DNA from: a virus
Reading direction: 5' to 3' (one strand)
Virus record (IMG/VR): IMGVR_UViG_3300035665_000261
Span: 1 to 22,224 of that record
DNA: 22,224 nt
Part shown: in pieces, positions 907-19,917 of the stretch
Position numbering within the stretch: the first letter of the stretch is position 1
Layout: each line of letters starts with the position of its first letter
Notes under the pieces: generated by a model
The model's database searches: none
The model's input: the letters and a program-made list of their open reading frames with translations, nothing else
Told to the model about the DNA's origin: nothing
Made by a program: the position numbers and the translations under genes

Positions 907-2418
907 TTAATACCCAAACATTCTTACGCATATCAAAGAATTAGTGCCTCTATCAGTCATAGAAATAGTGTCAGAGAACGAGGTAGTGCTCTGGCTATAG
1001 ATTTTGTAGCCGACCCAGAACGTATTATCTGGCCCAGCTACATAAGTAGCCCCAGAGAACGTAGTGTCGGTACCGGTGCTAATACCGGACGAACCGTAGA
1101 ACATGGAAAACACAATAGGGATACCGTCTGCGTACCCATCTACAGATGTATCAGACACGGTAACTGAAGAAGGTGTGGCAGTAGTATTAAACCCACCGGA
1201 CGAAACATCTGAACCTGAAGTAGTTCTGGAATATCCACGACTACCTCTAAATACAAGAATAATCTTCTTGTTGGTGTCTCCATTCATGCCAGTAAGAGTA
1301 GTACCGGCATCTGCTGGATTCGTTATTACTTTGTAGCTGATATTGTAACGACCGTAGGTGCCCCCGCTCTGAGTAAGTATAGAAGTGAATCCAGAAGGAG
1401 TAACAGCGGTTGGAGTAGAAGTGGAAGAAAGAGCTTGATCAACCAATACAACAGTATCTCCAGTTGTCACACCAGACGGTATATTTATAGTTGAAGAAGA
1501 ACTAGCTCCTGTACTTACGCACGAAACAGTGTTGATAGACACATTTGTAGTTGGGAACGAAGGAGAGTTACCCCACAGAATTCGCAAAGCCCCAGCACTT
1601 CCGGAGTCACCGCTGCCTCCAGAGCCGTTGTTACCTCTAGCGCCTGAGCCAGAGCGACCGGGGTTTATAGGCCCAGAGAGAGATCCGCCTAAAGAAGACC
1701 CCAATCTTCCAGAAGCTGAAACGCCGGTACCGGCAGCGCCTCCGGTACCTTCTCCATAAAAAAATGTACCGCCGCCATAAGCAATACCGCCGCTGCCGTA
1801 GTAACTACCGCCGCCACCACCTCCAGAGCCCGCAGTGGGCGGATCATTAGTGACGTTGTCGTACCCGCTACCACCTACGCCAGAATATCCAGCAGCACCG
1901 CCACCACCCCCACCGTAAGCAATGGAAGCATCTTCACCTGCGCCACCATCACCACCAGAGTATTTAACGTCGCCTACGCCAAGAGTCGAACTTCCACCCT
2001 GACCACCACCATTGAGTCCACCCCCGTCACCACCTTTAGCAAGCAACAAATTAGTGGCACTGCGCCGAATATAAGAATCACCGCCGGGGGAGCCCCCAGT
2101 TCTAGAACTGACCCCCCCTGTCCCTCCAGCACCTCCAGCACCAACTACTACAGTCAAAGTTTCGCCGGGAGTTACGGATAGATTGTTTACGTAGGATAGG
2201 GCACCGCCACCGCCACCGCCACCGCCATCACCACCTGATTGGCCTATGCTACCGGCGCCGCCAGCACCGCCACCGATAGCGACGGCAGTTATCTGGTACA
2301 CCCCAGACGGAACCACAATTGAAAAGGACCCGTTGGACCAAAAAGTAATGCCCCCTACTTCTGTAGTGGGTGGGGCAGAGGGTATAGCGTTGATAGCGCC
2401 CTTACCAGCAGCGAACAT
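907..2418 (-). CDS. Large glycine-rich tail protein, fourth adhesin-like gene
   Basis: A 503-residue protein in two parts. Residues 1-about 285 have a short beta start (VGGITFWSNGSFSIVVPSGVYQITAVAIGGGAGG) followed by many Gly-rich runs (GGDGGGGGGGGALSYV, GGAGGTGGV, YGGGGGGAAGYSGVGGSG). This is similar in design to the three paralogues upstream but too divergent to call a simple duplicate. Residues about 290-503 are a Gly-poor Ser/Thr-rich beta domain (INIPSGVTTGDTVVLVDQAL...FRGSRGYS...DRGTNSLICVRMFGY) that recurs at the C-terminus of phage tail proteins. The start uses TAAGGAG plus five bases with the upstream stop. It is probably receptor-binding, inferred from neighbours and composition. 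Confidence 0.7.
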   Translation of the reverse strand: MFAAGKGAINAIPSAPPTTEVGGITFWSNGSFSIVVPSGVYQITAVAIGGGAGGAGSIGQSGGDGGGGGGGGALSYVNNLSVTPGETLTVVVGAGGAGGTGGVSSRTGGSPGGDSYIRRSATNLLLAKGGDGGGLNGGGQGGSSTLGVGDVKYSGGDGGAGEDASIAYGGGGGGAAGYSGVGGSGYDNVTNDPPTAGSGGGGGGSYYGSGGIAYGGGTFFYGEGTGGAAGTGVSASGRLGSSLGGSLSGPINPGRSGSGARGNNGSGGSGDSGSAGALRILWGNSPSFPTTNVSINTVSCVSTGASSSSTINIPSGVTTGDTVVLVDQALSSTSTPTAVTPSGFTSILTQSGGTYGRYNISYKVITNPADAGTTLTGMNGDTNKKIILVFRGSRGYSRTTSGSDVSSGGFNTTATPSSVTVSDTSVDGYADGIPIVFSMFYGSSGISTGTDTTFSGATYVAGPDNTFWVGYKIYSQSTTSFSDTISMTDRGTNSLICVRMFGY

Positions 2419-2427
2419 GACTACTCC

Positions 2428-3630
2428 TTACGGCGTGTAGTTCTGGCCAACAGTGGTGCCGTACCAGTTGGTGCCGTCGGCGAAGAAGCTAAAGATGTCC
2501 ATACGCGAGGCAGTGGATGTTACCGTGGGAGCGGTGCCACCGGGCCACTTAACTGCGTTGAACGAACACGTAAAACTACCCGCTCCGGTCTTTAGCTGCA
2601 CCAAGAAGCTTTTCCCAGCCGTAGCAGTCGGCATCGTGATCGTCGCATTACCCGTAAGCGTGAGCACCTGAATGGTGCCGTTAGCCAGATCAAGAGTAAG
2701 CGCGGTGCCGGTGTTGGCAGTGAAAGTTGTCTCGGTGTAGTTGGTGATTGTGGGGTTAGTCAGCGTCTTGTTGGTCAGCGTCTCCGACCCAGTCGGCGTG
2801 ACGTAATCTGTACCCGCTACCGCCGCAGCAAAGCCAGAACCCGTACCCTTGAGCACACCACTGAGCGATGTAGTCACCGCCAACGTGCCCGAACCTGTGA
2901 CCGGAGAGTTGCTTACGGTAAAGCCAGTCGGCATAGACAAGCCGACGGAGGTAACCGTACCGCCACCACCGCCGCCAGCGGCGGCAATCGTGATAGAGCC
3001 GGGACCGTTCGTGATGGTGATGTTAGACCCAGCCGTCAGCGTGGCTTTGGCGAGCGTGTTGCCTGTGCTATTACCAATCAACAACTGACCGTCCGTGTAG
3101 GAGGTCTGGCCCGTACCGCCGTTTGCGACCGCCAAGGTACCAGCAACAGTAACCGCACCAGATGTGGCTGAACTAGGAGTCAGACCGGTAGAGCCGAAGC
3201 TAATCGTAGAGACGTTGCTACCGCTAACACCAGAAGCAATAAGTACAAAGTCAGTGCCAGTCCACGCAACTAGCGCACGAACACCCGTTGATATCGTGAC
3301 GCCAGTGGTAGCAGAGCCTTTGACGACCACGCTCGCATTTGACTGGTTGTCTACGATGTAGGCTTTGCTGCTACTAGGGGCAATGATGTTGCGAGTCACG
3401 CCGGGTGACCCAGTAGGTACAAGGATTGCGCACCGCGCTTGGTTGGTAGCGCCCGACCCAGTGGTCGTCAGCGTCCAATCACCAGAAGTGACACTAGCCG
3501 TTGCCGTGGCTGCAATGGCGTCTTCAACAAGCTCCGTGATGCTGTTGTTGACAACGTTGCCCCATGCGCCGTCAAGCTCGCCTTCGACTGGGAGCGCAAA
3601 GCCCAGAAGTGATGTGTAAGCAGTAGTCAT
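2428..3630 (-). CDS. Tail-fibre protein with ANGGTG and TNKTLTNPTITN motifs
   Basis: A 400-residue beta-rich, Thr/Ser/Gly-rich protein. The N-terminus (AYTSLLGFALPVEGELDGAWGNVVNNSITELVEDAIA) is a phage fibre opening I recall from environmental phages. Residues 164-217 carry GTLAVANGGTGQTSYTDGQLLIGNSTGNTL...SNITITNGPGSITIAA, a very common fibre motif. Then come a Gly run (219-224) and GVLKGTGSGFAAAVAGTDYVTPTGSETLTNKTLTNPTITN (258-297). The C-terminal domain (VLTLTGNATITMPTATAGKSFLVQLKTGAGSFTCSF...FSFFADGTNWYGT) is typical of trimeric fibre ends. Ribosome site TAAGGAG; its own stop forms the site of the next gene. Confidence 0.8.
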   Translation of the reverse strand: MTTAYTSLLGFALPVEGELDGAWGNVVNNSITELVEDAIAATATASVTSGDWTLTTTGSGATNQARCAILVPTGSPGVTRNIIAPSSSKAYIVDNQSNASVVVKGSATTGVTISTGVRALVAWTGTDFVLIASGVSGSNVSTISFGSTGLTPSSATSGAVTVAGTLAVANGGTGQTSYTDGQLLIGNSTGNTLAKATLTAGSNITITNGPGSITIAAAGGGGGGTVTSVGLSMPTGFTVSNSPVTGSGTLAVTTSLSGVLKGTGSGFAAAVAGTDYVTPTGSETLTNKTLTNPTITNYTETTFTANTGTALTLDLANGTIQVLTLTGNATITMPTATAGKSFLVQLKTGAGSFTCSFNAVKWPGGTAPTVTSTASRMDIFSFFADGTNWYGTTVGQNYTP

Positions 3631-3676
3631 GTAGTGCTCCTTAGCCTACGAAATTGTCGTACCAAACACGTCGAAA

Positions 3677-3692
3677 TGGTAGCGGGCTACCA
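3677..3692 (-). other. Short inverted repeat at the stop of glycine-rich copy 3
   Basis: TGGTAGC and GCTACCA form a near-perfect palindrome that includes the TAG stop codon (minus strand), followed by ATTTCGA. It lies at the start of the 56-base gap before the fibre gene at 3630. The stem is only six or seven pairs and the following T tract is short, so it is at most a weak attenuator or mRNA-end structure. The rest of the gap holds only the TAAGGAG ribosome site. Confidence 0.3.
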
Positions 3693-4535
3693 CGTCCATA
3701 TAGCCACCATGCCGCCACCCCCACGACCGCCGATACCTAAAGCTCCAAACCTACCAGCGCCGCCGCCCCCACTACCGATGCCTCCCCTACCACCAGCAGT
3801 ACCGGTGTTACTGCCGTTCGTAGTACCACCAGTGCCACCAAACCCAAGCAAGTTGGGGCGAAATATAGAGCGCCCATTTCTACCGGGGATGGTGCCGCCC
3901 GCTGTGGTTGAAGGTAGCGTCGGGTATAGCCCGGCAAGAACAAGCGCTGCATCAAAGCCTACCTGACCACCGGTACCTGCGGCTGCTCCCGCACCTCCGC
4001 CACCCCCAAGAAACGGCGCGGTTGTTGATAAGCCGGTTACGAGGCCACCATTGTCTGAAGGACCGCCGCCAACACCTCCGTTTGTACCTACAAGACTATT
4101 CCAAAGACCTGTAGCGGCAAAGGGAGAACCAGTGAATGCAACACCACCGGCACCGGCAGTCACTGCCGTTGTGCCGCCAGTACCGCCGTTAGCAGAAAGC
4201 AATGTGTACCCTGTTCCGGACACAGGGTCCACCCCAAATCGTTGATATACAACTGAGGACGCGCCCCCGTTAGAGTTGCTAGCCCCCCCTACCCCTACTA
4301 CGGCACGAAGCTGATCTGGGACAAATAACGCAGGGCCAAGCCAATTAGTTAGTGAGCCGCCACCTCCGCCACCGCAGCCGTTAGCAGAGCCACCCCCCGA
4401 ACCGCCTCCACCCCCTGCACCGACCAACAAGATGCGAACCATGGACGCGCCACGTGGCTTTATCCAATCACCGGTAGCAAAGAACTCTTGGTAGTTGCTA
4501 GTCTGTGTAGTGGGTATACCAAATACGTCTAGCAT
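3687..4535 (-). CDS. Glycine-rich adhesin-like protein, copy 3
   Basis: A 282-residue paralogue, the most glycine-rich of the three. It opens MLDVFGIPTTQTSNYQEFF, close to copy 1, then WIKPRGASMVRILLVGAGGGGGSGGG, then LGPALFVPDQLRAVVGVGGASN, equivalent to VPDVLDIRVGIGG in copy 2. At least ten Gly-rich runs follow, and it ends GIGGRGGGGMVAIWTW. No collagen-like G-x-y periodicity is seen; the runs are GG[TAS]GG-type, as in polyglycine-II adhesins. An inverted repeat (TGGTAG...CTACCA) covers the stop codon at 3692-3677. The tail-adhesin role is inferred. Confidence 0.68.
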   Translation of the reverse strand: MLDVFGIPTTQTSNYQEFFATGDWIKPRGASMVRILLVGAGGGGGSGGGSANGCGGGGGGSLTNWLGPALFVPDQLRAVVGVGGASNSNGGASSVVYQRFGVDPVSGTGYTLLSANGGTGGTTAVTAGAGGVAFTGSPFAATGLWNSLVGTNGGVGGGPSDNGGLVTGLSTTAPFLGGGGGAGAAAGTGGQVGFDAALVLAGLYPTLPSTTAGGTIPGRNGRSIFRPNLLGFGGTGGTTNGSNTGTAGGRGGIGSGGGGAGRFGALGIGGRGGGGMVAIWTW

Positions 4536-4538
4536 AAG

Positions 4539-5354
4539 TCACCATGAAATAACCATAACCATGCCGTCGCCGCCCAAAACACCATTTAGAGGTGTAGAAA
4601 GCGTAGTAGCAGCCCCAGTCCCCCCACCGCCTATGCCCGAATAAGTAAACGTGTTAGGAGTCCCGCTGTATCCGGGGGGTGTCATGGGCACAGTCGTAAG
4701 AGGTGTAAGAACAGTAAATCCATTGACGTTATAGTTAGGTGCACCATTTGTATAGTACCCATACTGCCCGTCAATGTAACCAAATCTATCGGCTGCGCCG
4801 CCAGCACTAATCGGGGTGGTAGTGGACACTACAAACTGACCTGTGTTAGCAGTCTGCCCAGTCTGCCCGCCGGTACTTTGATATACTCCCATACTCGTAA
4901 AAAACGTACCAGAAGCTGCGCTAGCGCCAGCCCCTCCAATACCAAACCTAGTAATAGTAGATGGGCCAGTACCGGTACCGCCAGCAGATCCGGCGTTTGC
5001 AGATATAAGAGTTATGTTGTTGTAAAGTACTGAAGTAGTGGTCGCTGCCGCAGAGGGCCTACCGCCAATACCAACTCTTATATCCAATACATCAGGCACA
5101 AGAAACGCTGGTATAAGAAAAGAAGTAATGCCCCCACTTCCACCACCCCCACCAAAACCAGCAATACCGCTCGTGGTGTCACTAACAGCAGTCCCGCCAA
5201 TGCCGCCGGGGCCAATCAATACAAAATAGACCATGCCTACCCCTACGGGCTTGGTCCACGATTGCTCGTTAAAAGTAGTGTTAGTAGAGGGCGGGGCTGT
5301 AAAAGTGCTTACATAAGCACCTTGTGGTGTGGGGTAATTAAACGGGTAAGTCAT
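4539..5354 (-). CDS. Glycine-rich adhesin-like protein, copy 2
   Basis: A 271-residue paralogue of its two neighbours. It opens MTYPFNYPTPQGAYVSTFTAP, has W-TKPVGVGMVYFVLIGPGG at about 33-51, then GFGGGGGSGGITSFLIPAFLVPDVLDIRVGIGGRPS, and ends GGDGMVMVISW. Gly runs are fewer than in copy 3, and the central Thr/Asn/Tyr-rich part (FGYIDGQYGYYTNGAPNYNVNGFTVLTPLTTVP) is unique to it, which fits a variable receptor-contact region. The ATG follows the upstream TAA by one base, so re-initiation is likely. Function is inferred from composition. Confidence 0.65.
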   Translation of the reverse strand: MTYPFNYPTPQGAYVSTFTAPPSTNTTFNEQSWTKPVGVGMVYFVLIGPGGIGGTAVSDTTSGIAGFGGGGGSGGITSFLIPAFLVPDVLDIRVGIGGRPSAAATTTSVLYNNITLISANAGSAGGTGTGPSTITRFGIGGAGASAASGTFFTSMGVYQSTGGQTGQTANTGQFVVSTTTPISAGGAADRFGYIDGQYGYYTNGAPNYNVNGFTVLTPLTTVPMTPPGYSGTPNTFTYSGIGGGGTGAATTLSTPLNGVLGGDGMVMVISW

Positions 5355-5355
5355 A

Positions 5356-6138
5356 TTACCAACTCACTATAGCAACAAAACCCGGACCACCTATGCCGCC
5401 AGCAAGCGCGTCTTCTCCGCCGCCCCCACCGCCAGAGCCAACACCACCCCTGCCCCCCGCAGTACCAGCGAGATCAGTAGTAGTACCTCCGCCACCACCT
5501 AAGCCTAAAAATAGAGGGCCGTAAATACTTAGCCCATCGGAACCAATCGCAGTCCCCCCGGCAGTAGCACCGGGCACAGTCCATCCCGGCCCGGTGACAG
5601 CCCCTCCCGGCGAAAGAGAACTAGCTGATCCACTAGCTCCTCCGGTTACCGCTACAGTACTGTAAGTAAGATCCACTGCGGTAGAACCAGAACCCGCCGC
5701 GCCAGTCTGCCCAGTAGTAGCAGTTCCAACAGCAGCTACTTGGGACAAACTACGAAATAATATACTGAAGCCACCACTACCGCCAGTAACGCCAGAGCCT
5801 GCGTTACCGTTACTGGCTTGCACTAATCCAAAACTAGATGCGGTGGGAGAAATATATATGTTAGCGTTGCTGGAATCAAAGCGAACGTATAAAACATCTT
5901 GAATAAATTGCGCAGCGCAACTATACGTTACTATTCCTCCTGAACCACCCCCAGCCCCACTTAATGCGGCAGCGCCCGCAGCGCCATTACCACCGCGACC
6001 AACTGCGATTATGAAAACTTGACTAACACCCCGAGGTTTAGTCCACATCTTCGGGTCAGCACTCACGGAATTAGCCGGACCAAAGAACGTCTGTACGTTA
6101 CATGAACTTGGACTAGGGGTGTTAAAGGTGTCAAGCAT
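5356..6138 (-). CDS. Glycine-rich adhesin-like protein, copy 1
   Basis: A 260-residue protein, first of three tandem paralogues. The N-terminus (MLDTFNTPSPSSCNVQTFFGP...MWTKPRGVSQVFIIAVGRGG) is a short beta domain with the shared W-x-KP-x-G-V-x-x-V motif. The middle has several Gly-rich runs (GAGGGSGGIV, GGSGGFSIL, LGLGGGGGTT, GGVGSGGGGGG) and the end is GGIGGPGFVAIVSW. Gly-rich runs spaced by short hydrophobic strands are what is seen in gp38-type phage adhesins, where they pack as polyglycine II helices with exposed loops that bind the receptor. Adhesin function is inferred. Confidence 0.65.
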   Translation of the reverse strand: MLDTFNTPSPSSCNVQTFFGPANSVSADPKMWTKPRGVSQVFIIAVGRGGNGAAGAAALSGAGGGSGGIVTYSCAAQFIQDVLYVRFDSSNANIYISPTASSFGLVQASNGNAGSGVTGGSGGFSILFRSLSQVAAVGTATTGQTGAAGSGSTAVDLTYSTVAVTGGASGSASSLSPGGAVTGPGWTVPGATAGGTAIGSDGLSIYGPLFLGLGGGGGTTTDLAGTAGGRGGVGSGGGGGGEDALAGGIGGPGFVAIVSW

Positions 6139-6316
6139 TAGTCAAACCCCAAGAAGGAGCTTCAACATTTGTGGCTACGCAGGTGTATTCAACCTTTTCT
6201 TCTGGTTCAACAAGTTTGCCGTCAGCGCGATAAACACCTATGCAATACCCGTTGTCCATCTGCATGTACCCCGTAGAGTCATCAGAAAAAACAATAGCCC
6301 ACCATTGCGTATTCAT
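6131..6316 (-). CDS. Small hypothetical protein
   Basis: A 61-residue soluble protein starting MNTQWWAIVFSDDSTGYMQM, with NGYCIGVYRADGKLVEPEEKVEYTC in the middle and two cysteines. I do not recognise it. It shares one base with the upstream stop (TAATG) and overlaps the next ATG by eight bases, so it is embedded in the operon and most likely translated. It could be a small accessory or chaperone for the glycine-rich adhesins encoded directly downstream, but this rests on position only. Confidence 0.6.
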   Translation of the reverse strand: MNTQWWAIVFSDDSTGYMQMDNGYCIGVYRADGKLVEPEEKVEYTCVATNVEAPSWGLTNA

Positions 6317-6753
6317 TAGTAATCTCCTGCAATTACAACAATGCTATACCCTGTACCGGCAGCGCCGGTCGAGGTGCCAAAAGTAACGTACAGCAAATAG
6401 TTAGGGTCGAGCGCAAAGTTCATCGGTATCTCGAAGATACTAGATGCTGCCGTCTGCGATAGCGTATTGGCGGGCAGCGTGATTTCATCGTACAACCAAG
6501 TGTTCGTGGCGCTAGTTGTGGTAGAAGTAGAAATGAATACGCGACAAACAGTAGCGGCAGGAGAACCGACAGGGCGTAACCTAACTTTTTGTATGTAAGA
6601 ACCGTTTGCCCCGGCGGTGAACGCTTTGTACAGAGTGCCGGAGCCATCTAGCGCAGTGTTGGCAGTCGGGCCAACAACAAGACCGGCGTTATTCGTAGCG
6701 ACGGAATCTACTGCTCCGGTCGCAGAAAAGATTGGTTGGGTATTTGCGGGCAT
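6316..6753 (-). CDS. Conserved small virion structural protein (MPANTQPIFS type)
   Basis: A 145-residue beta-rich protein: MPANTQPIFSATGAVDSVAT, LYKAFTAGANGSYIQKVRLRPVGSPAATVCRVFIST, NTWLYDEITLPANTLSQ and EIPMNFALDPNYLLYVTFGTSTGAAGTGYSIVVIAGDY. I recognise this as a recurrent family in aquatic phages, found near fibre genes, which points to a structural role such as a tail or fibre accessory protein. The ribosome site TGAGAGG overlaps the upstream stop. The stop codon overlaps the next ATG (TAATG). Confidence 0.78.
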   Translation of the reverse strand: MPANTQPIFSATGAVDSVATNNAGLVVGPTANTALDGSGTLYKAFTAGANGSYIQKVRLRPVGSPAATVCRVFISTSTTTSATNTWLYDEITLPANTLSQTAASSIFEIPMNFALDPNYLLYVTFGTSTGAAGTGYSIVVIAGDY

Positions 6754-6762
6754 GGTTACCTC

Positions 6763-7116
6763 TCAAGGAAGAATGCAGTTGACAGTCAACGCACGGGACA
6801 AGCCGTACGGGACGGTGATTTCAGCGGGGAATGTTACAAAAACCGCCTTGGTGCCAGCACTGAAGTTGACTTTAGCAGTACCCGCAGAAGACGATATGAC
6901 GACGTTGCGGCTCAAGGTAGTGCCGCTAGACGTGTAAGTACCAACGCCTACCTCCCACTCTGTACCCGTCTGAGCCGCAATGCAGTAGTACGTATCATTG
7001 CCGTTGCCGATTGCAGCGAACGACTGGAATCCCGTGACCGCCCCGCCCAACGTAATCGTGCCTGTACCGATAGTGGTTGTAGTCTCTTTTACTCTGTCTT
7101 TGAGAACAAACGCCAT
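6763..7116 (-). CDS. Small structural protein, paralogue of the 9617 gene N-terminus
   Basis: A 117-residue protein whose first 100 residues (DRVKETTTTIGTGTITLGGAVTGFQSFAAIGNGNDTYYCI...WEVGVGTYTSSGTTLSRNVVISSS) match the N-terminal module of the 291-residue protein encoded at 9617-8742. It has a short own tail (TVPYGLSRALTVNCILP) instead of the large C-terminal domain. DNA similarity is also visible near the starts of both genes. The ribosome site TAGGAG contains the stop of the repeat-protein gene. It may be a stand-alone collar or attachment unit, or the remnant of a truncated fibre gene. Confidence 0.75.
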   Translation of the reverse strand: MAFVLKDRVKETTTTIGTGTITLGGAVTGFQSFAAIGNGNDTYYCIAAQTGTEWEVGVGTYTSSGTTLSRNVVISSSAGTAKVNFSAGTKAVFVTFPAEITVPYGLSRALTVNCILP

Positions 7117-7124
7117 AGCTGCTC

Positions 7125-8678
7125 CTATCGAGTGTCTATTTCATCCCAATTGGGGTTCTGTGTATCCACTACATCCTGCCAATTAGGTGCTTGGACAGTC
7201 GTTACATCTGCCCAACTAGCTGTCTGTTGAGCGCTCACAGCTTGCCAGTTTGGCGTCTGGGTATCGTCGATGTTGCCCCAGTTGGGGGTCTGCGTGTCAT
7301 CAATGATCTCCCACAGGAACCGAGCAAACGTCGCATCCGTGGCAATCGCGCTCTCTTCGAGGCTTGCAAGATACGACATTATGGTTGTCGGCGCAACCGT
7401 GCCAACAGCCGTGTCCTCCACTACCGGATTCAGAGACGCATTGGTCGGTATAGAGTCCGTAGCGGAAGCCGATTCAACAATGTCAGCAGCAAAACCTTGG
7501 AGGGCGCTAAATTCGTCAGAAGCGGTAGCCGTTTCCGCCACTACAGGGTTAAGAGATCGGCTGGGCGTTATTTCATCTGTGCCCGTTGCAGAATCCTCAA
7601 CAGAAGAAACAAAACTAGCGGCGGCATCAACAGAGTCAGATGCCGTAGCAGACTCTTCTACTGAGGCTTCAAATACAGCGAACGCACTGAACTCATCAGT
7701 TACGATGCTAGTGTTGTGCGATACTTCAGAATAGAAATCTGCAAAAGCGGCAGGGGTATCTGTGCCGGTAGCAGTCTCTTCAATGAGCCGTTCGTTAGTA
7801 GGTATTAGTGCGGTAATTACTGCGTCAGTAACTGTCGCAGTTTCAGCAACTACCGGACCTTGCGAAGCCAGAGTAGAAACTTCATCCGAAGCACTAGCAG
7901 TCTCATCGACCACCGTACCCTGCGCGGCCAACGTACTGACAACGTCAGAAATTGAAGCCGAATCCTCAAGGGATACGTCGTGATCCAAAAAGGCGTTGAT
8001 AGAATCAGCGCCAGTCGCGGATTCAGCTACTACTGCTTCGTGCGTTTGAAGGGAACTGACTGAATCAGATGCGTGCGCATCTCCTAAAACGTCGCCGTTG
8101 TTGCTTACCTCACTGCTTACAACAGCAGACGCCGTAGCAGTCTCAGTTATTACAGTAGCGTAGTCATTGTTGGCTTCAACTACATCAGAGGCATTTGCGG
8201 ACTCATCAACATCTGTTCCAAACGTCTGAAGCGCATCGACAGAATCAGAGCCGGAAGCGTGTTCATCTATATCCGAATTAAACTCTGCACCGGCGCTGAC
8301 AGAAACCGTAGCAGTAGCAGTTTCGTCTACTGCTCGGCTGTACTCAGCAGCGCAATCAATTACGTCAGATGCAGTCGCGTCTTCCGCTATTACCGAAGCA
8401 AGTGTTAGTGACGCACTTACAGAATCGCTAACAGACGCGGCTTCGTTTACGGCTGCGCCATAGTCTATTGATGACGAAGGCGCGTCGGTAACAGTAGCGG
8501 TTTCTACTGTTGAGCCCTCGAAGGCATAGACGCCTTCTTGGACTGTAGTGGCGTATGCATCTGCTGTGTATGCGTTTACGCCGAACCAACCTCCACCCTC
8601 TTCAACTACCCGTCCGCCGGAAGGGGAAGTGGAGATTGCCGATAATGCAGTAGAGGCTAATGGATTTATACCAAGCAT
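7125..8678 (-). CDS. Repeat-built tail/fibre protein (20-residue and 11-residue repeats)
   Basis: A 517-residue, acidic, Ala/Ser/Thr-rich protein. After about 55 unique residues (with GGRVVEEGGGWFGVNAY), residues 56-458 are about twenty copies of a 20-21-residue unit with core V-x-E-[ST]-A-[ST]-A-[ST]-D-x-V-[SD]-A and a variable half. Residues 459-513 are five copies of an 11-residue unit [VI]-x-x-T-Q-x-P-N-W-x-x, and the protein ends IDTR. It has no cysteine-rich or catalytic region and only two cysteines at most. Such regular repeats suggest an elongated rod or beta-solenoid fibre. The ribosome site is weak (GAAGTG), in contrast to its neighbours. It sits between two proteins that share an N-terminal module. 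The tail-fibre role is inferred. Confidence 0.7.
   Translation of the reverse strand: MLGINPLASTALSAISTSPSGGRVVEEGGGWFGVNAYTADAYATTVQEGVYAFEGSTVETATVTDAPSSSIDYGAAVNEAASVSDSVSASLTLASVIAEDATASDVIDCAAEYSRAVDETATATVSVSAGAEFNSDIDEHASGSDSVDALQTFGTDVDESANASDVVEANNDYATVITETATASAVVSSEVSNNGDVLGDAHASDSVSSLQTHEAVVAESATGADSINAFLDHDVSLEDSASISDVVSTLAAQGTVVDETASASDEVSTLASQGPVVAETATVTDAVITALIPTNERLIEETATGTDTPAAFADFYSEVSHNTSIVTDEFSAFAVFEASVEESATASDSVDAAASFVSSVEDSATGTDEITPSRSLNPVVAETATASDEFSALQGFAADIVESASATDSIPTNASLNPVVEDTAVGTVAPTTIMSYLASLEESAIATDATFARFLWEIIDDTQTPNWGNIDDTQTPNWQAVSAQQTASWADVTTVQAPNWQDVVDTQNPNWDEIDTR
7140..7304 (-). repeat. Five 33-base coding repeats (PNW unit)
   Basis: Five contiguous 11-residue units: DDTQTPNWGN, DDTQTPNWQA, SAQQTASWAD, TTVQAPNWQD and VDTQNPNWDE, each preceded by I or V. 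The Trp is kept in all five and PNW in four. They close the repeat protein just before its stop. Confidence 0.88.
7305..8513 (-). repeat. About 20 degenerate 60-base coding repeats (20-residue unit)
   Basis: Twenty consecutive units of 19-21 residues read E[ST]A[ST]A[ST]D at the same phase, for example DETASASDEVSTLASQGPV and EESATASDSVDAAASFVSS. Third-codon positions differ between copies, so the array is old or held by protein-level selection rather than freshly duplicated. Confidence 0.88.
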
Positions 8679-8741
8679 GGCTGCACTTCGGTATTAAAGA
8701 GTCAAGTCACTTTATTTGGATAAAGCTGCCTCAACCATAGG

Positions 8742-9617
8742 TTACGCCCACCCACCAATGTTAGTGTTAGTGGCGGCAGTAAACGCAGCTACGGGCGAAA
8801 TTTTGAAGTGGCTACCGATCTGGGCAGTATACGCCCCGCCCGGCGCAGCAGACAAAGAATACTGCGGTATGAACGTACCGCCCGTAGTAACAGCCACAGT
8901 GCCTTGAACAGAAATAATTAACGTTTGCACCGCGGTGGTAAGCGCAGCCGTCTGCACAATGGCTGTAGCCACTGCTGGAAACGCCATGTTAGTAGGTGAG
9001 CCTACGGTAGTCAGTGATGTAGCATTCTGCTTTACTAGCGTTCGGTAGCCTATTGCGTTGAGTACAGCAGTGCCACCAAACAGAGTAGATACCGTGTGCG
9101 ATGTAGTACCTGCGGTCTTTGACAGCACATACAACCCCTCAAACTGATACAAAGTAGCGCTTGCAAGGGTAATACTTACACCAAAAACCGACTGGGCACC
9201 TGTGGCGTTAGCTCCTGCTACTGTGTTAGCCAGACGGAAAAAGTATTCCATTGGCACAGTGCCAGTATTGGTACCAGCTAAGCCGTCGCGTATGTATCCA
9301 AGCTCATCGCCATATACTGCGCGGTCAGCGGGATAAGTACCAAATACAGTAGATGTGCCAGTAAGACTAATGGCGTTTCCGGAGTTAGAAGACGCCAATA
9401 TAGTAGTCCTAGCCAGCGTCGACCCCGCCGATGTGTAGGTGCCAATACCTACTTCCCAGTCAAGACCGTTACCAGAAGTGATCGTGTAATAGGTCGTGTT
9501 GCCGTTGCCGATGACGGAGAACGACTGAAAGCTAGCTACCGCCCCGTTTAAGGTTATGGTACCCGTGCCTGTAGTGCTCGTAGTCTCCTGAACACGGTCG
9601 TCAACAACAAGCGGCAT
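8742..9617 (-). CDS. Tail-fibre-like protein with shared N-terminal module
   Basis: A 291-residue Thr/Gly/Ala-rich beta protein. Residues 1-100 (DRVQETTSTTGTGTITLNGAV...FQSFSVIGNGNTTYYTI...WEVGIGTYTSAGSTLARTTI) are clearly homologous to the 117-residue protein encoded at 7116-6763. The remaining part has YFFRLANTVAGANATGAQSVFGVSITLASATLYQFEGLYVLSKTAGTTSHTVS and ends KISPVAAFTAATNTNIGGWA, a C-terminal domain I recall from phage tail proteins. The N-terminal module probably attaches to the tail and the C-terminal domain is the exposed part. The following gene begins 63 bases after its stop. Confidence 0.72.
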   Translation of the reverse strand: MPLVVDDRVQETTSTTGTGTITLNGAVASFQSFSVIGNGNTTYYTITSGNGLDWEVGIGTYTSAGSTLARTTILASSNSGNAISLTGTSTVFGTYPADRAVYGDELGYIRDGLAGTNTGTVPMEYFFRLANTVAGANATGAQSVFGVSITLASATLYQFEGLYVLSKTAGTTSHTVSTLFGGTAVLNAIGYRTLVKQNATSLTTVGSPTNMAFPAVATAIVQTAALTTAVQTLIISVQGTVAVTTGGTFIPQYSLSAAPGGAYTAQIGSHFKISPVAAFTAATNTNIGGWA

Positions 9618-9626
9618 GGCCTATCC

Positions 9627-10205
9627 TTAGCCTGCGAGACTGAAGGTATACGTTACGTTCAACGTGTCACCGTTAACCACGCTACGGTCGCCGGGGGCTT
9701 GGAAGTCAGCCGCCGAGAACAGCGTGCCAGTAGTGCCGCCTTTCACGTCGTCGCTAGTCAAGAACGCGCCACCAATAGTAGTAGTGCCGTTGATGCTATA
9801 CGTCGCCTTGTTAGCCGTGTTAGTAACGACCGAAGGATTGGCGTTCGTCGCAGCAGCGAAAACAGCGGCGGGGCGAGTAGACTGGCTGTACGTAGTGTTT
9901 TCTGTCCAGCCAATATGCGAAGCCATCGTATCGCTGGAGGCGGGGTTATTGGAAGAAGCAGCCCCGTACAACCCGATGTACCACGAAGTAATAGGCGTAG
10001 TGGAAGTGAGAGCGGCACCAGCCATGTATTGCAGGCCCACGTTCACCACGAGGTTAGGTGTCTCGGCGACCCACTTGAGGTTGCCGTCCTTGTCGTAGCA
10101 CTCAACAATGTACTTGCCGGTAGCCTTAGCGCCTTCAGTGGCTCCAGTGTTTGCCGTCAGACCACCGCTAACAACTTCAGCGGCTCGTGCTTTTTCGATG
10201 GACAT
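9627..10205 (-). CDS. Conserved virion structural protein (YIVECYDKDGNLKW type)
   Basis: A 192-residue protein. After a low-complexity N-terminus (about 25 residues) comes KYIVECYDKDGNLKWVAETPNLVVNVGLQYMAG, then SWYIGLYGAASSNNPASSDTMASHIGWTENTTYSQSTRPA, and a beta-rich C-terminus with GAFLTSDDVKGGTTGTLFS and GDTLNVTYTFSLAG. Versions of this motif set occur in many phages and prophages as a presumed structural protein near tail or fibre genes. It has no enzymatic motif. The ATG follows TAAGGAG plus five bases, with TAA being the upstream stop. Confidence 0.75.
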   Translation of the reverse strand: MSIEKARAAEVVSGGLTANTGATEGAKATGKYIVECYDKDGNLKWVAETPNLVVNVGLQYMAGAALTSTTPITSWYIGLYGAASSNNPASSDTMASHIGWTENTTYSQSTRPAAVFAAATNANPSVVTNTANKATYSINGTTTIGGAFLTSDDVKGGTTGTLFSAADFQAPGDRSVVNGDTLNVTYTFSLAG

Positions 10206-10214
10206 AATGACTCC

Positions 10215-10634
10215 TTAGTTGGAAGACCGAATCAAGGCGCTGTTGGCATCATTGACCGGCATGACGATAGTGAAAGTGGCAACCGAGGTCTTGTCAGACC
10301 CGAAATCCAACACTGCAATAGACTTGTTGGCCTTACTTGCGTTGTAGATCAAAGCACAACGAGCCGTGAATACACCGGGATTCCACTCCACGTTATCAAA
10401 GTCCACGTACGCCGTATACAAAAAACTACTAATAGTCGTTCCGGTTAGCACCTTTCCGCCCGCAGTGTATCCAGTGCCGGTGATCTCGTTGCTAGTCGTG
10501 TACACCGTAGTATCTGCGTTCAGATCAGCATTAGCCGTGTACAAAGCAATCTTGAGCACATCCACGGACAAGTCGTGGGTGCCTAAGTAAAGCTCCTTTT
10601 TGAAGCTAGTGGTTTGAGTCTGTACGATGCTCAT
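10215..10634 (-). CDS. Conserved virion structural protein
   Basis: A 139-residue beta-rich protein: SFKKELYLGTHDLSVDVLKIALYTANADLNADTTVYTTSNEITGTGYTAGGKVL, then a VDFDNVEWNPGVFTARCALIYN strand pair and SIAVLDFGSDKTSVATFTIVMP. I recall this pattern as a widespread phage protein in tail or fibre-adjacent positions, probably structural and perhaps a ring or nozzle component. There are no helices of note. It overlaps the previous gene by one base, and its stop forms the ribosome site of the next gene. Confidence 0.75.
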   Translation of the reverse strand: MSIVQTQTTSFKKELYLGTHDLSVDVLKIALYTANADLNADTTVYTTSNEITGTGYTAGGKVLTGTTISSFLYTAYVDFDNVEWNPGVFTARCALIYNASKANKSIAVLDFGSDKTSVATFTIVMPVNDANSALIRSSN

Positions 10635-11284
10635 TAGTTAACCGCCAGCCGTACTTGACCGTCACGGTATGCATCCATACGCTGCTTGCCATCGCCCAAG
10701 TTCTTCAGCAGGGTAATGGACTGCACGTACATTTTCTCGTAGAACTGAACCAAGTCGGGCTCGCCCTTCATGAAGCGAATGGCTTCAACCAGAGCGGCGT
10801 TAAGCAGCGCAGAGTCAAAGTTGTCGCCAAGCCACGACGTACCCGAAACAACAATCGAAGTCGGGTAGTAGTAATAGTGCAGTTCCGCCGTTAGTGCAGA
10901 ACTAGGAGTTGGGCCAAGAATAAAAACTAGCTCGTCCTCGTTGTCTGAACGAGGACCAAAAATAGCGTAGTGTTTAGGTATACCCGTAACGGTGGGGTTA
11001 GGGTAAGCCTCCCGCATGAAGTTCACGTCCTTGTTTAGCAAGTAGACGTACTCCCCATCAGGCTTCACAACGGCCAAGGAATACACCGACAAAAAGTCAG
11101 TCGGGCACTGAAGGTACTTGTTGTTGGAAGTCAGGGAGCCCGTGACGTTTCTGCGCAGGTTGGCAAGCTGCACCGTGTTGTAGATACGTTGCTCAGCCTG
11201 CTTCGTGAACAAAGCATACTGATCCTCCGTAAAGGTGTTTTCGCAGATGTCTGCGATGTTTGCCTTCAACTCGGTGTAGTTCAT
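10634..11284 (-). CDS. Head-tail adaptor-like protein (SU10 adaptor-like)
   Basis: A 216-residue protein. The N-terminal helices (YTELKANIADICENTFTEDQYALFTKQAEQRIYNTVQL) and then LRRNVTGSLTSNNKYLQCPTDFLSVYSLAV form the typical opening of SU10-type adaptors. Central strands (ELVFILGPTPSSALTAELHYYYYP) and a C-terminal helical pair (DNFDSALLNAALVEAIRFMKGEPDLVQFYEKMYVQSITLLKNLGDGKQRMDAYRDGQ) complete it. Such proteins form a ring under the portal. This is the second adaptor-like gene here, so the two may form stacked rings. The ATG follows a weak GTGAGG site, and the stop overlaps the next ATG by one base. Confidence 0.7.
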   Translation of the reverse strand: MNYTELKANIADICENTFTEDQYALFTKQAEQRIYNTVQLANLRRNVTGSLTSNNKYLQCPTDFLSVYSLAVVKPDGEYVYLLNKDVNFMREAYPNPTVTGIPKHYAIFGPRSDNEDELVFILGPTPSSALTAELHYYYYPTSIVVSGTSWLGDNFDSALLNAALVEAIRFMKGEPDLVQFYEKMYVQSITLLKNLGDGKQRMDAYRDGQVRLAVN

Positions 11285-11553: not shown

Positions 11554-11757
11554 TTAGCCACCCTTCTTATAGGTGAACGAAGACTTTTTCTGGTTGGCAA
11601 CCTTGGCAAGATTGCGGCCCAGCGCCTTCATCTGTGCATTGGTCTTACCGCCCTTGGCAAGCTTAGTCATGGGTTGACCGGGGTGTTTTGCTTTTTCATG
11701 CTTATGCACGGCCCCAGCAATCATCTTCTTGTCTTGCGCGAGATCTTTCTTGTCCAT
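11554..11757 (-). CDS. Small lysine-rich protein
   Basis: A 67-residue, highly basic protein: MDKKDLAQDKKMIAGAVHKHEKAKHPGQP, MTKLAKGGKTNAQMKALGRNLAKVANQ and a KKSSFTYKKGG tail. About a quarter of residues are lysine. The ribosome site TAAGGAG is formed by the stop codon of the upstream zinc-ribbon gene, followed by five bases and ATG. I recall similar lysine-rich small proteins in marine phage genomes. Function is unknown; the charge suggests DNA or membrane-surface binding. Confidence 0.75.
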   Translation of the reverse strand: MDKKDLAQDKKMIAGAVHKHEKAKHPGQPMTKLAKGGKTNAQMKALGRNLAKVANQKKSSFTYKKGG

Positions 11758-11766
11758 ATCGACTCC

Positions 11767-12183
11767 TTACGTCGTTTGGATGGTTACTGTACCAACAGAG
11801 GCAATTGCCACCAAGTAGTTTGGCGTCAACCCTGCATCAGTTCCTCTAGCCCCTCCAACGGGGTTCCACCCCCATTGGATGTCCCGAGAGCCGCCAGTGG
11901 GTACACCACCGTACGGATTGTCCGGATCTAGTTGCAGTCCGTTCACCCCCGCAGTTACATACGTGCTGTCCTTGCGCGGGTTGCGCACAGCTTGCGGGTC
12001 GTCCACCGGATACATACCAAGCTGCAACTGCGGATGGTCTGGATCCCAGCATTCTTGGCAAACCAGCAAATTGAAAATCTTGGTCTTAATGACCTCTTTG
12101 CGCAGCGTCTTCAGTTTGAACTGTTGACCGCAGCGGTCGCACATGGCGATGCTGAACTTGCCAGAGGCGAAGCGATTACCCAT
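11767..12183 (-). CDS. Zinc-ribbon virion-module protein
   Basis: A 138-residue protein with four cysteines in two pairs, C15-x2-C18 (CDRC) and C42-x2-C45 (CQEC). They are separated by a basic segment, FKLKTLRKEVIKTKIFNLLV. This is a classic Cys4 zinc-ribbon. The following WDPDHPQLQLGMYPVDDPQAVRNPRKDS stretch is a conserved block I recall from phage proteins next to adaptor genes. The C-terminal half is a flexible Gly/Pro/Thr segment, and the last 20 residues are beta-like. It probably binds Zn and may contact DNA or tail proteins; the partner is unknown. Start TAATG overlaps the adaptor stop. Confidence 0.8.
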   Translation of the reverse strand: MGNRFASGKFSIAMCDRCGQQFKLKTLRKEVIKTKIFNLLVCQECWDPDHPQLQLGMYPVDDPQAVRNPRKDSTYVTAGVNGLQLDPDNPYGGVPTGGSRDIQWGWNPVGGARGTDAGLTPNYLVAIASVGTVTIQTT

Positions 12184-13118
12184 TAGGTATACCCCCCGCC
12201 AATAAACATCTGCCGGGGCACAAACCGCACTGCGGCCTTCTCGCGGTCTTCGCCCGCAGCTAGGTCAAACTGCTCGTCGTACGCTTGCTTGAGCATCGGG
12301 AGTCGGTCGGCCAAGTCAGGCTGCTTCATCGCAACGTAGTACGCCAACCCCGCAACCACACAGGGCAAGAAGCGGAAGTTCATGTCTGCCGTAGCCACTC
12401 CCGACCCAGCGTCTTGGATACGGCGCAGTCGCCAGTACACAAAAGTGTAAGTGGTGCTGTTGTCCGGCGTCGGCCAGACAGTGACGGCGGGCAGGTTGGG
12501 GTTATAGACCGTAGTGCCGTTGGTATGCGAAGCGGCAGTCGTGCCGTTCTGTGCACGGAACACACCGCCCAGCGTGTTGTCGCTGTTGATGTACCCGTAG
12601 TAGATATCTTCGCTGTCAAGCCGGATAAAGCCAGCAGCCGGAAGGCTTGTGGTGTCGCTGAGCGTGATCGTCGTGGTGGAGCTATTGATGGTGCCCACCA
12701 ATGTCGCGTTGGCCGGGCTCACCTGCCCGCTCATGCGTTGCACCCAGACTTGTATAGGACGAGCTTGCTGTAGCTTGTTAGGGATCGTAGCGTACGTAGA
12801 AACGCTAATACGGGTGATGGTCAGATCCGCCTGAGTAGACGAGGAGTTAGCCCCCGTGCGGATGACATGTTCCATCAAGTCGATGGTGTCAGTCGGCAGT
12901 GCGTACGTGTTGAGGCCGGGGGTCAGCGTGAAGCTCCCCTCCTCAATCGTCCACATGTTAATGCCCCGGTTCTGCCACTCGATAGTCATCAAGTTCATGG
13001 AACGACGTGCAGTACGCAGGTCGTAACCAGAACGCATCTCTCGGCCAGCACGCTCGAACGCTTCCTCGGCTAGATCCGTGAAGTCAAGGTCGAAAGTGGT
13101 GGTACCGGTGGTGGTCAT
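12183..13118 (-). CDS. Head-tail adaptor-like protein with an internal beta insertion
   Basis: A 311-residue protein. The N-terminal helices (LDFTDLAEEAFERAGREMRSGYDLRTARRSMNLMTIEWQNRGINMWTIEE) followed by FTLTPGLNTYALP and a C-terminal helical bundle (FRFLPCVVAGLAYYVAMKQPDLADRLPMLKQAYDEQF) resemble the adaptor proteins that join portal and tail in podoviruses (P22 gp4 / SU10 adaptor-like). The conserved strand TVWPTPDNSTTYTFVYWRLRRIQDAG lies at 213-238. Between the two halves, residues about 131-208 form an Ile/Thr/Gly-rich beta module (GFIRLDSEDIYYGYI...GVFRAQNGTTAASHTNG) that looks inserted. It overlaps the next gene by one base (TAATG). The adaptor role is inferred. Confidence 0.65.
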   Translation of the reverse strand: MTTTGTTTFDLDFTDLAEEAFERAGREMRSGYDLRTARRSMNLMTIEWQNRGINMWTIEEGSFTLTPGLNTYALPTDTIDLMEHVIRTGANSSSTQADLTITRISVSTYATIPNKLQQARPIQVWVQRMSGQVSPANATLVGTINSSTTTITLSDTTSLPAAGFIRLDSEDIYYGYINSDNTLGGVFRAQNGTTAASHTNGTTVYNPNLPAVTVWPTPDNSTTYTFVYWRLRRIQDAGSGVATADMNFRFLPCVVAGLAYYVAMKQPDLADRLPMLKQAYDEQFDLAAGEDREKAAVRFVPRQMFIGGGYT

Positions 13119-14729: not shown

Positions 14730-15014
14730 TTAAGCGGCAACAGCCAGACCGGTCTTGATGTCAATCCAACTGGAACCCTTGCCAAAGCAAACCGTGCCTG
14801 CGTTGGTGTTGGCATTGGAGACATAGATCAAACCGCCAACCACAACGGTGGGCAGAGTGGTCGTGGTGTAGGCCGTAAGAACAGGCATGCCGGTCACGTT
14901 ACCCGTGACGTTGCCGGTCACGTTACCCGTGACGTTGCCAGTCACGTTACCCGTGAGGGCGCCGATGAAGCCGTTGTCCGATGCAACTGGGCCGGAGAAG
15001 GTAGTGCGTGCCAT
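14730..15014 (-). CDS. Small virion protein with TGNV tandem repeats
   Basis: A 94-residue protein beginning MARTTFSGPVASDNGFIG, a phrase I associate with small structural proteins of environmental phages. Residues 21-42 are five tandem copies of Thr-Gly-Asn-Val plus a final TG. A beta-rich C-terminus follows (TTTTLPTVVVGGLIYVSNANTNAG..CFGKGSSWIDIKTG). A strong Shine-Dalgarno (GAGGAG) precedes the ATG. There is no membrane segment. It is the first gene after the terminator and leader. A decoration, head-surface or fibre-tip role is possible, but nothing in the sequence settles it. Confidence 0.7.
   Translation of the reverse strand: MARTTFSGPVASDNGFIGALTGNVTGNVTGNVTGNVTGNVTGMPVLTAYTTTTLPTVVVGGLIYVSNANTNAGTVCFGKGSSWIDIKTGLAVAA
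14889..14954 (-). repeat. TGNV coding tandem repeat (12-base unit)
   Basis: Five and a half copies of a 12-base unit encode TGNV. At DNA level adjacent units alternate in codon choice, giving a clear 24-base period (CACGTTACCCGTGACGTTGC). Each unit also contains short inverted repeats (CACG/CGTG). This looks like a slippage-prone array inside the gene. Confidence 0.85.
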
Positions 15015-15162: not shown

Positions 15163-16071
15163 TTAGGCTCCGGGCGAACCGAAGATACCCAGCGGGTCCG
15201 AGACACCGAAGCTGTAACGCTCGCGGGCCTTGTAACGGACGTTGCCGGTATCAAAGTCGCCGTCCATACCCGTGCTCATCGGAGTACGAACAAAGTGCTT
15301 CAGACCGTTAGGCACGTCCGTGGTCAGGAACCAAGCGTTCGTATCGGTCAAGAAGTGATTAACGGTGTAACCCTCAGGGATCGAGCCGTTGTTCTTCAGC
15401 GCGTTGATGTCGTTGTCGGCGGTAGCCACGCGAAGCTCGGTTTCGAGCAGGCGGGTTGCCACGAACATCAGGGCCGGAGGAACAATCAGCTTGCGGGGCT
15501 TGGCAGCGATCAGCAGACCACGTTCGTCCGTCCACCCGGCGATCTGAATGACCGCGTTTTCGAGGGACGTTTCGTTGAGGTCAGCACCCACGGTGGGGCG
15601 ATTGCTGTTGGTACCACCGCTGATCAGCGGATGCGCCGTCGAGAACAGGCTGACGCCGTCGCCATAGGTGACGCCGGAGTTGAAGCCTTGGTTCAGGATG
15701 GAAGCAGCCTTGACCTGCTTGGTGTACGCCATGGCACGAGCCAGAGCCTTGGTATACCGGGACGACAGAGAGTCGTACAGGTTGTCCTCGACCGCCTCTT
15801 CGGTGATCGAGAAACCCATGGCGATGGTTTCGTGGTTGTAGCGAGCGGTCCAAGCTTCCTGCGCATTGTCATAAGCAATCGCAGCGCCTTCGTTCTTCAC
15901 CGGAGCGGCGGAGAAGCCAGACAGCTTGGTTTCCTCTTCAAACGAGCGCTCAGAGGTCTCCGTTTCGTAGATCTCTTTGTGCTCTTCGCCGTAGCGAGCG
16001 TACTCCAAACCAAACAGGGCGTTCAGACCCGGCAGGAGTTCCTTCAGTAGTTGGGCACGAGAAATTGCCAT
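15163..16071 (-). CDS. Major capsid protein (HK97 fold, Mu gpT-like)
   Basis: A 302-residue protein, a normal size for an HK97-fold capsid subunit. Its core matches the Mu gpT layout as I remember it: an early EYARYGEEHKEIYETETSERS segment, then ETIAMGFSITEEAVEDNLYDSLS, then the helical SSRYTKALARAMAYTKQVKAA. Next come GDGVSLFSTAHPL and, in the C-terminal half, KPRKLIVPPALMFVATRLLETELRVAT. The Shine-Dalgarno AAGGAG is strong and partly formed by the upstream TAA stop. A strong intrinsic terminator lies about 16 bases after the stop, as expected for a highly expressed gene. No protease gene or obvious N-terminal delta domain accompanies it. Confidence 0.82.
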   Translation of the reverse strand: MAISRAQLLKELLPGLNALFGLEYARYGEEHKEIYETETSERSFEEETKLSGFSAAPVKNEGAAIAYDNAQEAWTARYNHETIAMGFSITEEAVEDNLYDSLSSRYTKALARAMAYTKQVKAASILNQGFNSGVTYGDGVSLFSTAHPLISGGTNSNRPTVGADLNETSLENAVIQIAGWTDERGLLIAAKPRKLIVPPALMFVATRLLETELRVATADNDINALKNNGSIPEGYTVNHFLTDTNAWFLTTDVPNGLKHFVRTPMSTGMDGDFDTGNVRYKARERYSFGVSDPLGIFGSPGA

Positions 16072-18963: not shown

Positions 18964-19917
18964 TTACTCCTTATTAGCCCAAGGCCCGACACGGGCCGTT
19001 TCGGTCAAAGTCTTCGTTTTGTAGTCAATACCACAAAATGCAGCGTAATCCTCTACAGACCGCCTGCGGCCCGCACCGTAAATGCCCATTGGACGGCTAT
19101 CCACAAGCTGCTGAAACCGAGTCTTGGCTTGCTTGTCGCGCTCCCACCAACGTACTGCACGGTCTTTATCGGCTGTTTCGTCCCAGTGCTTTGTCCGCAC
19201 AACAGAGCCATCCCCCGTGTCATAGAGGTGGTAGACAGGGAGATTGGGCGGATGGAAGATGTCCCACCCACGAGTAAATGCGCGAAGCGCCAGCGCTTGC
19301 TCCTCACCCGTGAAATACGCGCAAGGGTCATAAGGCACCTCGGACACGAAGTTGCCCGGAGCAAACAGACACCCGGCTCCAATGTGGAAACCACGTACGG
19401 GCTTGGTCGTGTCAAACGGCACGGCGTTAAACGCCAACGCTAAGTGCCCGTCCTCAAAGCTGTGTGTAGACGGGACTATGTGCACTAGCGCACCTTCAGT
19501 AGCTTTTAGTTTTACTCGTTCCCCGTTCTTGATCTCGTAGGCATGCGGGTAGCTGGAAAGGAGCGGCTTTCGAGCCTGTTTACGGGCCTCATGCCACTGC
19601 TCGACAAAGTACTCGTCCCAGTTCGGCTCGAACATCATGTGCGAGTCAATCTGAAAGAACCAATCTTCACCGTCATACAGAGTCATCGCCACTGACCGCG
19701 CCCAACAAGCCCCTCGGGACTGATTGGGCTCCACACGCAAGTAGCGAATGAATGGGGCCGCGTTCTCGTCAAAGCGCAGCCTACGCTCTTCGGTCTGCTG
19801 CTCAACAACACCAATGCGAAGGCGATCCGCCCTTGACACAGTGTCAAAGGCGTTCTGTATGGTGTACGGCAACTCAGGGTCGCAGTACGACGCAATACTG
19901 ATGAAGATAGTCTTCAC
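18964..19917 (-). CDS. Glycosyltransferase, GlcNAc-transferase (Skp1 GnT1 / GT60-like) family
   Basis: A 317-residue protein starting at a GTG codon (19917) that overlaps the portal stop as GTGA. It opens with IFISIASYCDPELPYTI (residues 4-20) followed by RIGVVEQQ. It then has the QIDSHMMF...NWD block near residues 89-101 (a DxH-type metal/nucleotide-sugar site) and a G.H.GAG..FAPG segment near 177-187. An acidic segment, DPCAYFTGEEQALALRAFTRGWD, follows near 197-219. This order is typical of the Pfam GlcNAc family (PF11397), whose founding members are eukaryotic enzymes adding GlcNAc to Skp1 hydroxyproline. There is no signal peptide or membrane span, so it should act in the host cytoplasm. 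Its place between portal and co-chaperonin suggests a virion protein as acceptor, but acceptor and donor sugar are unknown. The fold is confident and the substrate is not. Confidence 0.85.
   Translation of the reverse strand: MKTIFISIASYCDPELPYTIQNAFDTVSRADRLRIGVVEQQTEERRLRFDENAAPFIRYLRVEPNQSRGACWARSVAMTLYDGEDWFFQIDSHMMFEPNWDEYFVEQWHEARKQARKPLLSSYPHAYEIKNGERVKLKATEGALVHIVPSTHSFEDGHLALAFNAVPFDTTKPVRGFHIGAGCLFAPGNFVSEVPYDPCAYFTGEEQALALRAFTRGWDIFHPPNLPVYHLYDTGDGSVVRTKHWDETADKDRAVRWWERDKQAKTRFQQLVDSRPMGIYGAGRRRSVEDYAAFCGIDYKTKTLTETARVGPWANKE

Follow-up and report, generated by a model that had tools for sequence, protein, structure and literature searches.

Phage fibres are usually trimeric, and repetitive fibre proteins in which the number of repeats varies are a known kind. 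In SU10 (Kuravirus), the long tail fibre proteins gp12 and gp13 are numbered directly after the adaptor, gp11 (PMC9509320). The fibres of this phage are trimeric and have a coiled coil close to the dock; in the nozzle's fibre dock loop, three tryptophans in a pseudo-threefold arrangement bind the three chains of a short fibre (PMC9509320). HTVC027P is an HTVC023P-type phage that has been placed in the Podoviridae, and curli modules are present in pelagiphages of this type (PMC9599517).

Three phage proteins, all annotated as 'hypothetical protein', resemble in architecture the protein described here: WJZ48131 of DSL-LC04 (OR003939), UOF80312 of the Caudoviricetes phage ct7L0027 (MW202675) and gp55 of Roseobacter phage CRP-345 (MZ892990). 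They share with it a β-type array with a period of about 20 residues and an N-terminal WG/YG or NPF-like motif; their repeat, however, is TGVxATGxVG, which profile comparison could not relate to the E[TS]AT[AG][ST]D repeat of our protein. DSL-LC04 is also alike in its Trp-x10-Trp end and in a gene that follows the adaptor and phrog_644 genes, whereas the C-termini of the ct7L0027 and CRP-345 proteins differ. In the PHROGs collection, phrog_12240, to which no function is assigned, matches the repeats of two relatives (L045, E 4.7e-18; L010, E 3.9e-7) but neither the protein described here nor most members of its family.

This protein is encoded in the DNA of a virus, IMG/VR record IMGVR_UViG_3300035665_000261, of which positions 1 to 22,224 were analysed; 'the window' denotes this whole stretch of 22,224 nucleotides. 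Its likeness to SU10 gp12/gp13 lies in gene position and adaptor family (SU10_adaptor). The Trp dock of SU10 may serve as an analogy for a Trp docking element, and is not evidence of a relation.

The repeat gene and its surroundings

The gene and its modules are the following.

7125..8678, minus strand: gene of the modular repeat protein (ORF listing, ATG start, 517 aa)
8505..8678, minus strand: N-terminal module, residues 1-58, with the LGINPLASTALSAIS motif and EGGGWFG (N-terminus comparison)
7314..8504, minus strand: array of twenty repeats of about 20 residues, residues 59-455 (repeat analysis, family consensus)
7128..7316, minus strand: C-terminal Trp module, residues 455-517, LWEIIDDTQTPNWGNIDDTQTPNW..., six Trp at an exact 11-residue spacing

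A sequence-only reading of this DNA had placed a fibre-like protein of repeats at 7140-8513. The feature does lie inside that interval, but the coding strand is the minus strand and the gene spans 7125-8678; read on the plus strand, the interval is interrupted by many stops. About twenty units of near-constant length had been claimed, and the repeat analysis bears this out, with cores from residues 59, 79, 99 and so on to 442, and with units of exactly 20 aa in 18 of 20 cases, the other two being 22 aa (279-300) and 21 aa (301-321) long. The last unit extends into the Trp module, all units together covering residues 59-461. Autocorrelation relative to shuffled sequences gives z scores of 12.7, 10.7 and 11.5 at lags of 20, 40 and 60 residues, respectively. 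The core proposed for the units, E[ST]A[ST]A[ST]D, occurs in its strict form just four times, but a looser consensus, [ED][TS]A[TS][AGV][ST]D, holds; at core position 5 the 20 units have Ala (10), Gly (5), Val (4) or Ile (1). The array is strongly acidic, with 74 Asp and Glu residues against four Lys and Arg, and near-invariant Glu and Asp return in each unit. At the DNA level the units have diverged (mean identity 44%, maximum 62%), so the array is old rather than an assembly artefact, and it has presumably been maintained by constraint on the protein. An identical protein (100%) is encoded on a second contig of 12.8 kb (locus L009).

Neither Pfam, NCBIfam nor PHROG searches gave a match for the protein, and no known fibre domain is detectable; for want of a named fibre domain it is filed here as fibre-like and not as a member of a named family. 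Used directly as a query, it retrieved nothing from phage genomes or PDB sequences. An alignment of its own repeat segments, in contrast, led to 162 viral places, from which 80 IMG/VR loci were analysed, L009 with its identical copy among them. The genomic surroundings shared with these loci include the following genes of the window.

10634..11284, minus strand: tail adaptor, SU10_adaptor PF24175 (Pfam E 2.5e-19), which anchors the conserved block
8742..9617, minus strand: fibre-like protein, upstream neighbour, with an N-terminal domain of about 104 aa like that of annotated phage tail fibres
6763..7116, minus strand: downstream neighbour, a second copy of the fibre N-terminal domain, matching the same places as 8742-9617
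2428..3630, minus strand: fibre protein with a LLGFALPVEGELDGAWG domain, a homologue of which follows the repeat gene in many relatives
15163..16071, minus strand: major capsid protein (MCP; Pfam and PHROG matches)

The repeat gene sits within the tail/fibre part of the structural block, in the order adaptor, phrog_644 protein, phrog_8123 protein, an optional fibre domain, repeat protein and fibre protein. Across the 80 loci the phrog_8123 gene is found upstream of the repeat gene in 73, the adaptor gene nearby in 68 and a fibre gene in 67. On the 5′ side, homologues of 12183-13118, 11767-12183, 11554-11757, the adaptor, 10215-10634 and 9627-10205 occur in this order, and on the 3′ side the homologue of fibre gene 2428-3630 is common. 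The optional element corresponds to 8742-9617, which has a homologue in just 11 of the 80 loci and whose N-terminal domain has tblastn matches in CRP-6, CRP-603, Venkman and others; in the window this domain lies on both flanks of the repeat gene, perhaps as the trace of an earlier duplication or insertion there. When fourteen longer virus records were examined, all Trp-module matches fell into one ORF per record, within about 1-9 kb of the adaptor gene.

The capsid protein of Pelagibacter phage HTVC027P shares 66% identity with the window MCP. Among 11 records with an MCP match, nine have an MCP 82-95% identical to that of the window; the remaining matches are G014 with 68% and G015 with 87% over a partial MCP.

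Several other features of the window deserve mention in their own right. Four glycine-rich proteins are encoded on the minus strand (907-2418, 3687-4535, 4539-5354 and 5356-6138), with three of the genes in tandem. Of these, 907-2418 and 4539-5354 score above the cut-off of Pfam Gly_rich_2 and 5356-6138 slightly under it; the four look like a paralogous set of fibre-tip proteins or adhesins. A GlcNAc-type glycosyltransferase (PF11397, E 2e-51; 18964-19917, minus strand) directly adjoins the portal gene, a place that seems unusual for it. Finally, a 24-bp tandem repeat at 14888-14956, within a 94-aa ORF (14730-15014), encodes NVTGNVTGNVTGNVTGNVTG.

The repeat family and its variation in length

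In nearly all of the 80 loci the arrays have a 20-residue spacing, in proteins of 196-903 aa. Neighbouring cores are exactly 20 residues apart in 707 pairs, and most of the other spacings are either multiples of 20, left by cores that the pattern missed, or short ones due to overlapping chance matches. The consensus of this repeat, which we call type A, is E-[TS]-A-T-[GA]-[ST]-D-x-[VI]-S-A-x-x-x-[FY]-x-x-x-[VI]-x, with the low variability at positions 1-7 arising in part by construction, the units having been collected by a pattern fixed on these positions. Type-A proteins combine a core at 20-residue spacing, a Trp-x10-Trp end and a characteristic gene place; the window protein has all three, and the repeat proteins of the family are only 31-39% identical to it, against 82-95% for the MCP in nine of the eleven records.

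A second repeat, type B (TGVxATGxVGxVT), lies between the same ends in L106, L130, L136, L158, L164 and phage DSL-LC04. Profile comparison detects no homology between types A and B, with shallow profiles of five and three sequences. As a query, the type-B protein of L136 retrieved matches; a hand-assembled type-B query, which retrieved none, is left out of account. In G011, whose MCP is 85% identical to that of the window, type-B repeats are found in the gene at the same place. At the same genomic place L170 has an ORF of 2297 aa (1939-8832). It opens with a giant domain of repeated YWVGGTGNWSSTTKWS-like segments, no Pfam family matching its first 1620 residues, and continues with about 27 units of type A and the Trp module. 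The array is hence swappable for an unrelated 20-residue repeat, and a giant repetitive domain can replace the short N-terminal motif.

The two ends differ in how far they are conserved. In relatives, MFGINPFSAAPFGATA and GGWGSGTWGQAGWG correspond to the N-terminal module of the window protein. The recurrent N-termini are of two kinds, FGxxPFxxxPF (in the window LGINPLASTALSAIS) and GGWGSGTWGQAGWG, and some proteins carry both. At the C-terminus, the module tryptophans are residues 456, 467, 478, 489, 500 and 511. Five 11-residue PNW units had been proposed here; five intervals at a spacing of 11 are indeed present, but just four end in PNW and one is ASW. That the Trp tail is a separate module has held up: the W-x10-W end recurs in relatives, in 60 of 62 distinct complete proteins from the family loci, and is found also in L160, which has ten Trp units and almost no array. 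At least 500 Trp-module relatives were confirmed among viral contigs. The Trp end is the more widely conserved, but UOF80312 and CRP-345 gp55 have a similar N-terminal motif and another C-terminus; attachment to the virion could be through either end. A type-B repeat protein in L169 (1-642) has a different Trp-rich C-terminus, YWNGFWWQTYPVRVWNGSAWVQKPLRHWTGTAWE, and Trp-based end modules are therefore of more than one kind.

A change of length by gain or loss of repeats had been suggested from the sequence, and a comparison of copy number between relatives agrees, the differences being in whole units. In proteins with a GGWGSGTWG N-terminus, the distance from this motif to the first tryptophan of the module is 19 modulo 20 in 40 of 53, a count that is not to be read as a probability since these proteins are related by descent. 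Core lengths in this class are 119, 179, 199, 239, 279 and 299, and the Trp tails of the GGWGSGTWG proteins are mostly 29, 40 or 62-63 aa long, in steps of 11. Close pairs (L022/L049, L103/L113, L025/L062, L023/L086 and L067/L105 among those compared) illustrate the same point. L103 and L113 differ by exactly 80 residues, or four units, with near-identical ends and an upstream gene that is 98% identical; L022 and L049, whose upstream genes are 92% identical, have arrays 80 residues and Trp modules 22 residues apart in length; and L046 and L047 differ by 40 residues. Where close pairs are cleanly anchored, 80 residues is the commonest step and 40 or 60 are rarer. A second WG motif in the middle of some proteins can place the anchor on the wrong copy, producing spurious differences of 90, 170 and 189. 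Overall, the arrays of the family comprise about 6 to 40 units.

The 903-aa member L045, searched with tblastn against phage records for the isolate behind phrog_12240, gave no match. Bacterial genomes yielded 96 and 18 pattern matches and no confirmed relative, and with them no link to a prophage or host. No description of the repeat family was found in the literature searched, most subscription journals being outside reach. The family is large and almost undescribed, occurs in aquatic viruses, and is without a name, profile or structure. Neither the repeat family, with a fixed 20-residue pitch common to two unrelated repeats, nor its Trp module had a credible match in Pfam or NCBIfam, and in PHROGs the single unnamed cluster phrog_12240 matches a few members.

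Predicted fold of the array

AlphaFold2 models computed from family alignments for the window protein and for L049 are both all-beta, with two strands per unit. In the L049 model, strand one runs from position 18 to 4 and strand two from 7 to 15, with two-residue turns at 5-6 and 16-17. The L049 model has a mean pLDDT of 54.0 and the window model one of 52.2; a stretch at residues 220-290 scores better (block means 66-74). Foldseek matches in the PDB are weak (best E 0.03 and 2.3 for the two models). With a structural aligner, both models lie nearest to right-handed parallel beta-helices at Z about 16: the window model matches GH110A with Z 16.9 over 261 residues at 3.2 Å, and the L049 model reaches Z 16.4 and matches the P22 tailspike with Z 13.8 over 212 residues at 3.7 Å. 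Such pectin-lyase-like helices, including the P22, HK620 and CBA120 TSP3 tailspikes, align over most of the modelled array; in contrast to them, the two low-confidence models have far more regular coils and no catalytic domain, and sequence identity is about 10%. PDB profile matches to designed helical repeats were set aside as effects of composition and period, the models being all-beta.

It has been reported that AlphaFold2 over-predicts beta-solenoids for repeats, stacked uncompensated charges being a warning sign (PMC11795689). The strongly acidic array may carry this sign, which counts against the solenoid model. Neighbouring units are no more similar to one another than distant ones, so this comparison gives no independent sign of stacking. 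Even/odd alternation of hydrophobic residues along the unit is not significant (p 0.39), because the near-invariant Glu and Asp share the phase of the hydrophobic residues. The two models agreeing on a parallel beta-helix is, at this low confidence, agreement and not proof, and the regular beta-solenoid put forward in the sequence-only reading stays a prediction.

A trimeric beta fibre, such as a triple beta-spiral or triple beta-helix, with the monomer model as an artefact, is a serious competitor that we rate only somewhat below even chances. It would fit the near-strict 20-residue spacing with almost no loop insertions (the 707 exact steps), the low monomer pLDDT together with the documented bias of AlphaFold2, and the usual trimeric state of phage fibres; against it, two monomer models of different proteins share the fold type. 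The alternative bears only on the fold and does not conflict with a role as a fibre. The rise of a solenoid coil is 4.8 Å, and if the solenoid is true, twenty coils would give a rod of about 10 nm; a trimeric spiral would probably be longer. Should the 20-residue unit not be a pectin-lyase-like coil, it would be an undescribed fibre fold.

Proposed role in the virion

Taken together, sequence and gene order lead us to favour, with moderate confidence, a tail-fibre-type shaft segment, the phage being a short-tailed relative of the HTVC023P/HTVC027P group; the virion location, fold and oligomeric state of the protein are what we infer. Each 20-residue unit would contribute two short beta strands and two tight turns and stack into a rigid rod, and the array would set the reach and stiffness of the appendage. 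The Trp module may dock the protein onto a partner, either the tail or a neighbouring fibre protein. The array would be free in length and type because only its pitch and its ends are constrained, and its fast change relative to the capsid would reflect exposure at the phage-host interface, although rapid divergence alone does not prove host exposure. With several fibre-like genes nearby, position is compatible with more than one appendage, and with either end of it, as the part that the protein would form.

Position in the structural block, plasticity in length and fast divergence would be explained equally well by a head fibre or capsid decoration, in which the Trp module binds the capsid surface and the array projects outward, and in CRP-345 the type-B protein is encoded three genes after the coat protein. 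We nevertheless consider this unlikely: in the group of the window it is the adaptor gene and not the capsid gene that precedes it, fibre genes come next, and the database searches, Pfam and PHROG among them, found no sequence link to a known head fibre. Less likely again is a low-complexity, largely disordered acidic linker or spacer that forms no ordered rod. Such a linker would account for the richness in Ser, Thr, Ala, Asp and Glu, the low pLDDT and the Trp tail, which falls on the disordered side of the charge-hydropathy boundary. The arrays themselves, however, are on the folded side in 70 of 70 family members, the period is exact over hundreds of units, and both models have a regular beta pattern; the ordered structure put forward in the sequence-only reading is in line with this, no disordered chain being predicted. 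A secreted or surface amyloid-like (curli-type) product outside the virion is highly improbable: curlin repeats have a period close to that of the 20-residue unit and some weak BFVD fold matches are named 'Curlin associated', but Pfam scans gave no curlin-repeat match, a missing profile match being no proof in itself, no secretion genes were noticed among the window genes scanned, and the gene is placed inside the head-tail block.

For the tail-fibre-type shaft, a broader proposal can be made, albeit tentatively and with the odds against it: aquatic short-tailed phages may possess an 'interchangeable rod' system, in which conserved ends hold one of several unrelated, swappable repeats of the same pitch on capsids that are 82-95% identical.

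Such a gene, or its Trp end, occurs in hundreds of contigs of uncultivated viruses, where capsids that are close relatives come with a natural length series of one rod, from about 6 to 40 units. This series would allow a direct test for selection on fibre length and for host contact as its driver. The Trp module is a candidate docking module to be sought in other phages, and the interchangeable rod, if true, would let a phage exchange the length and type of its shaft while the docking parts stay the same.
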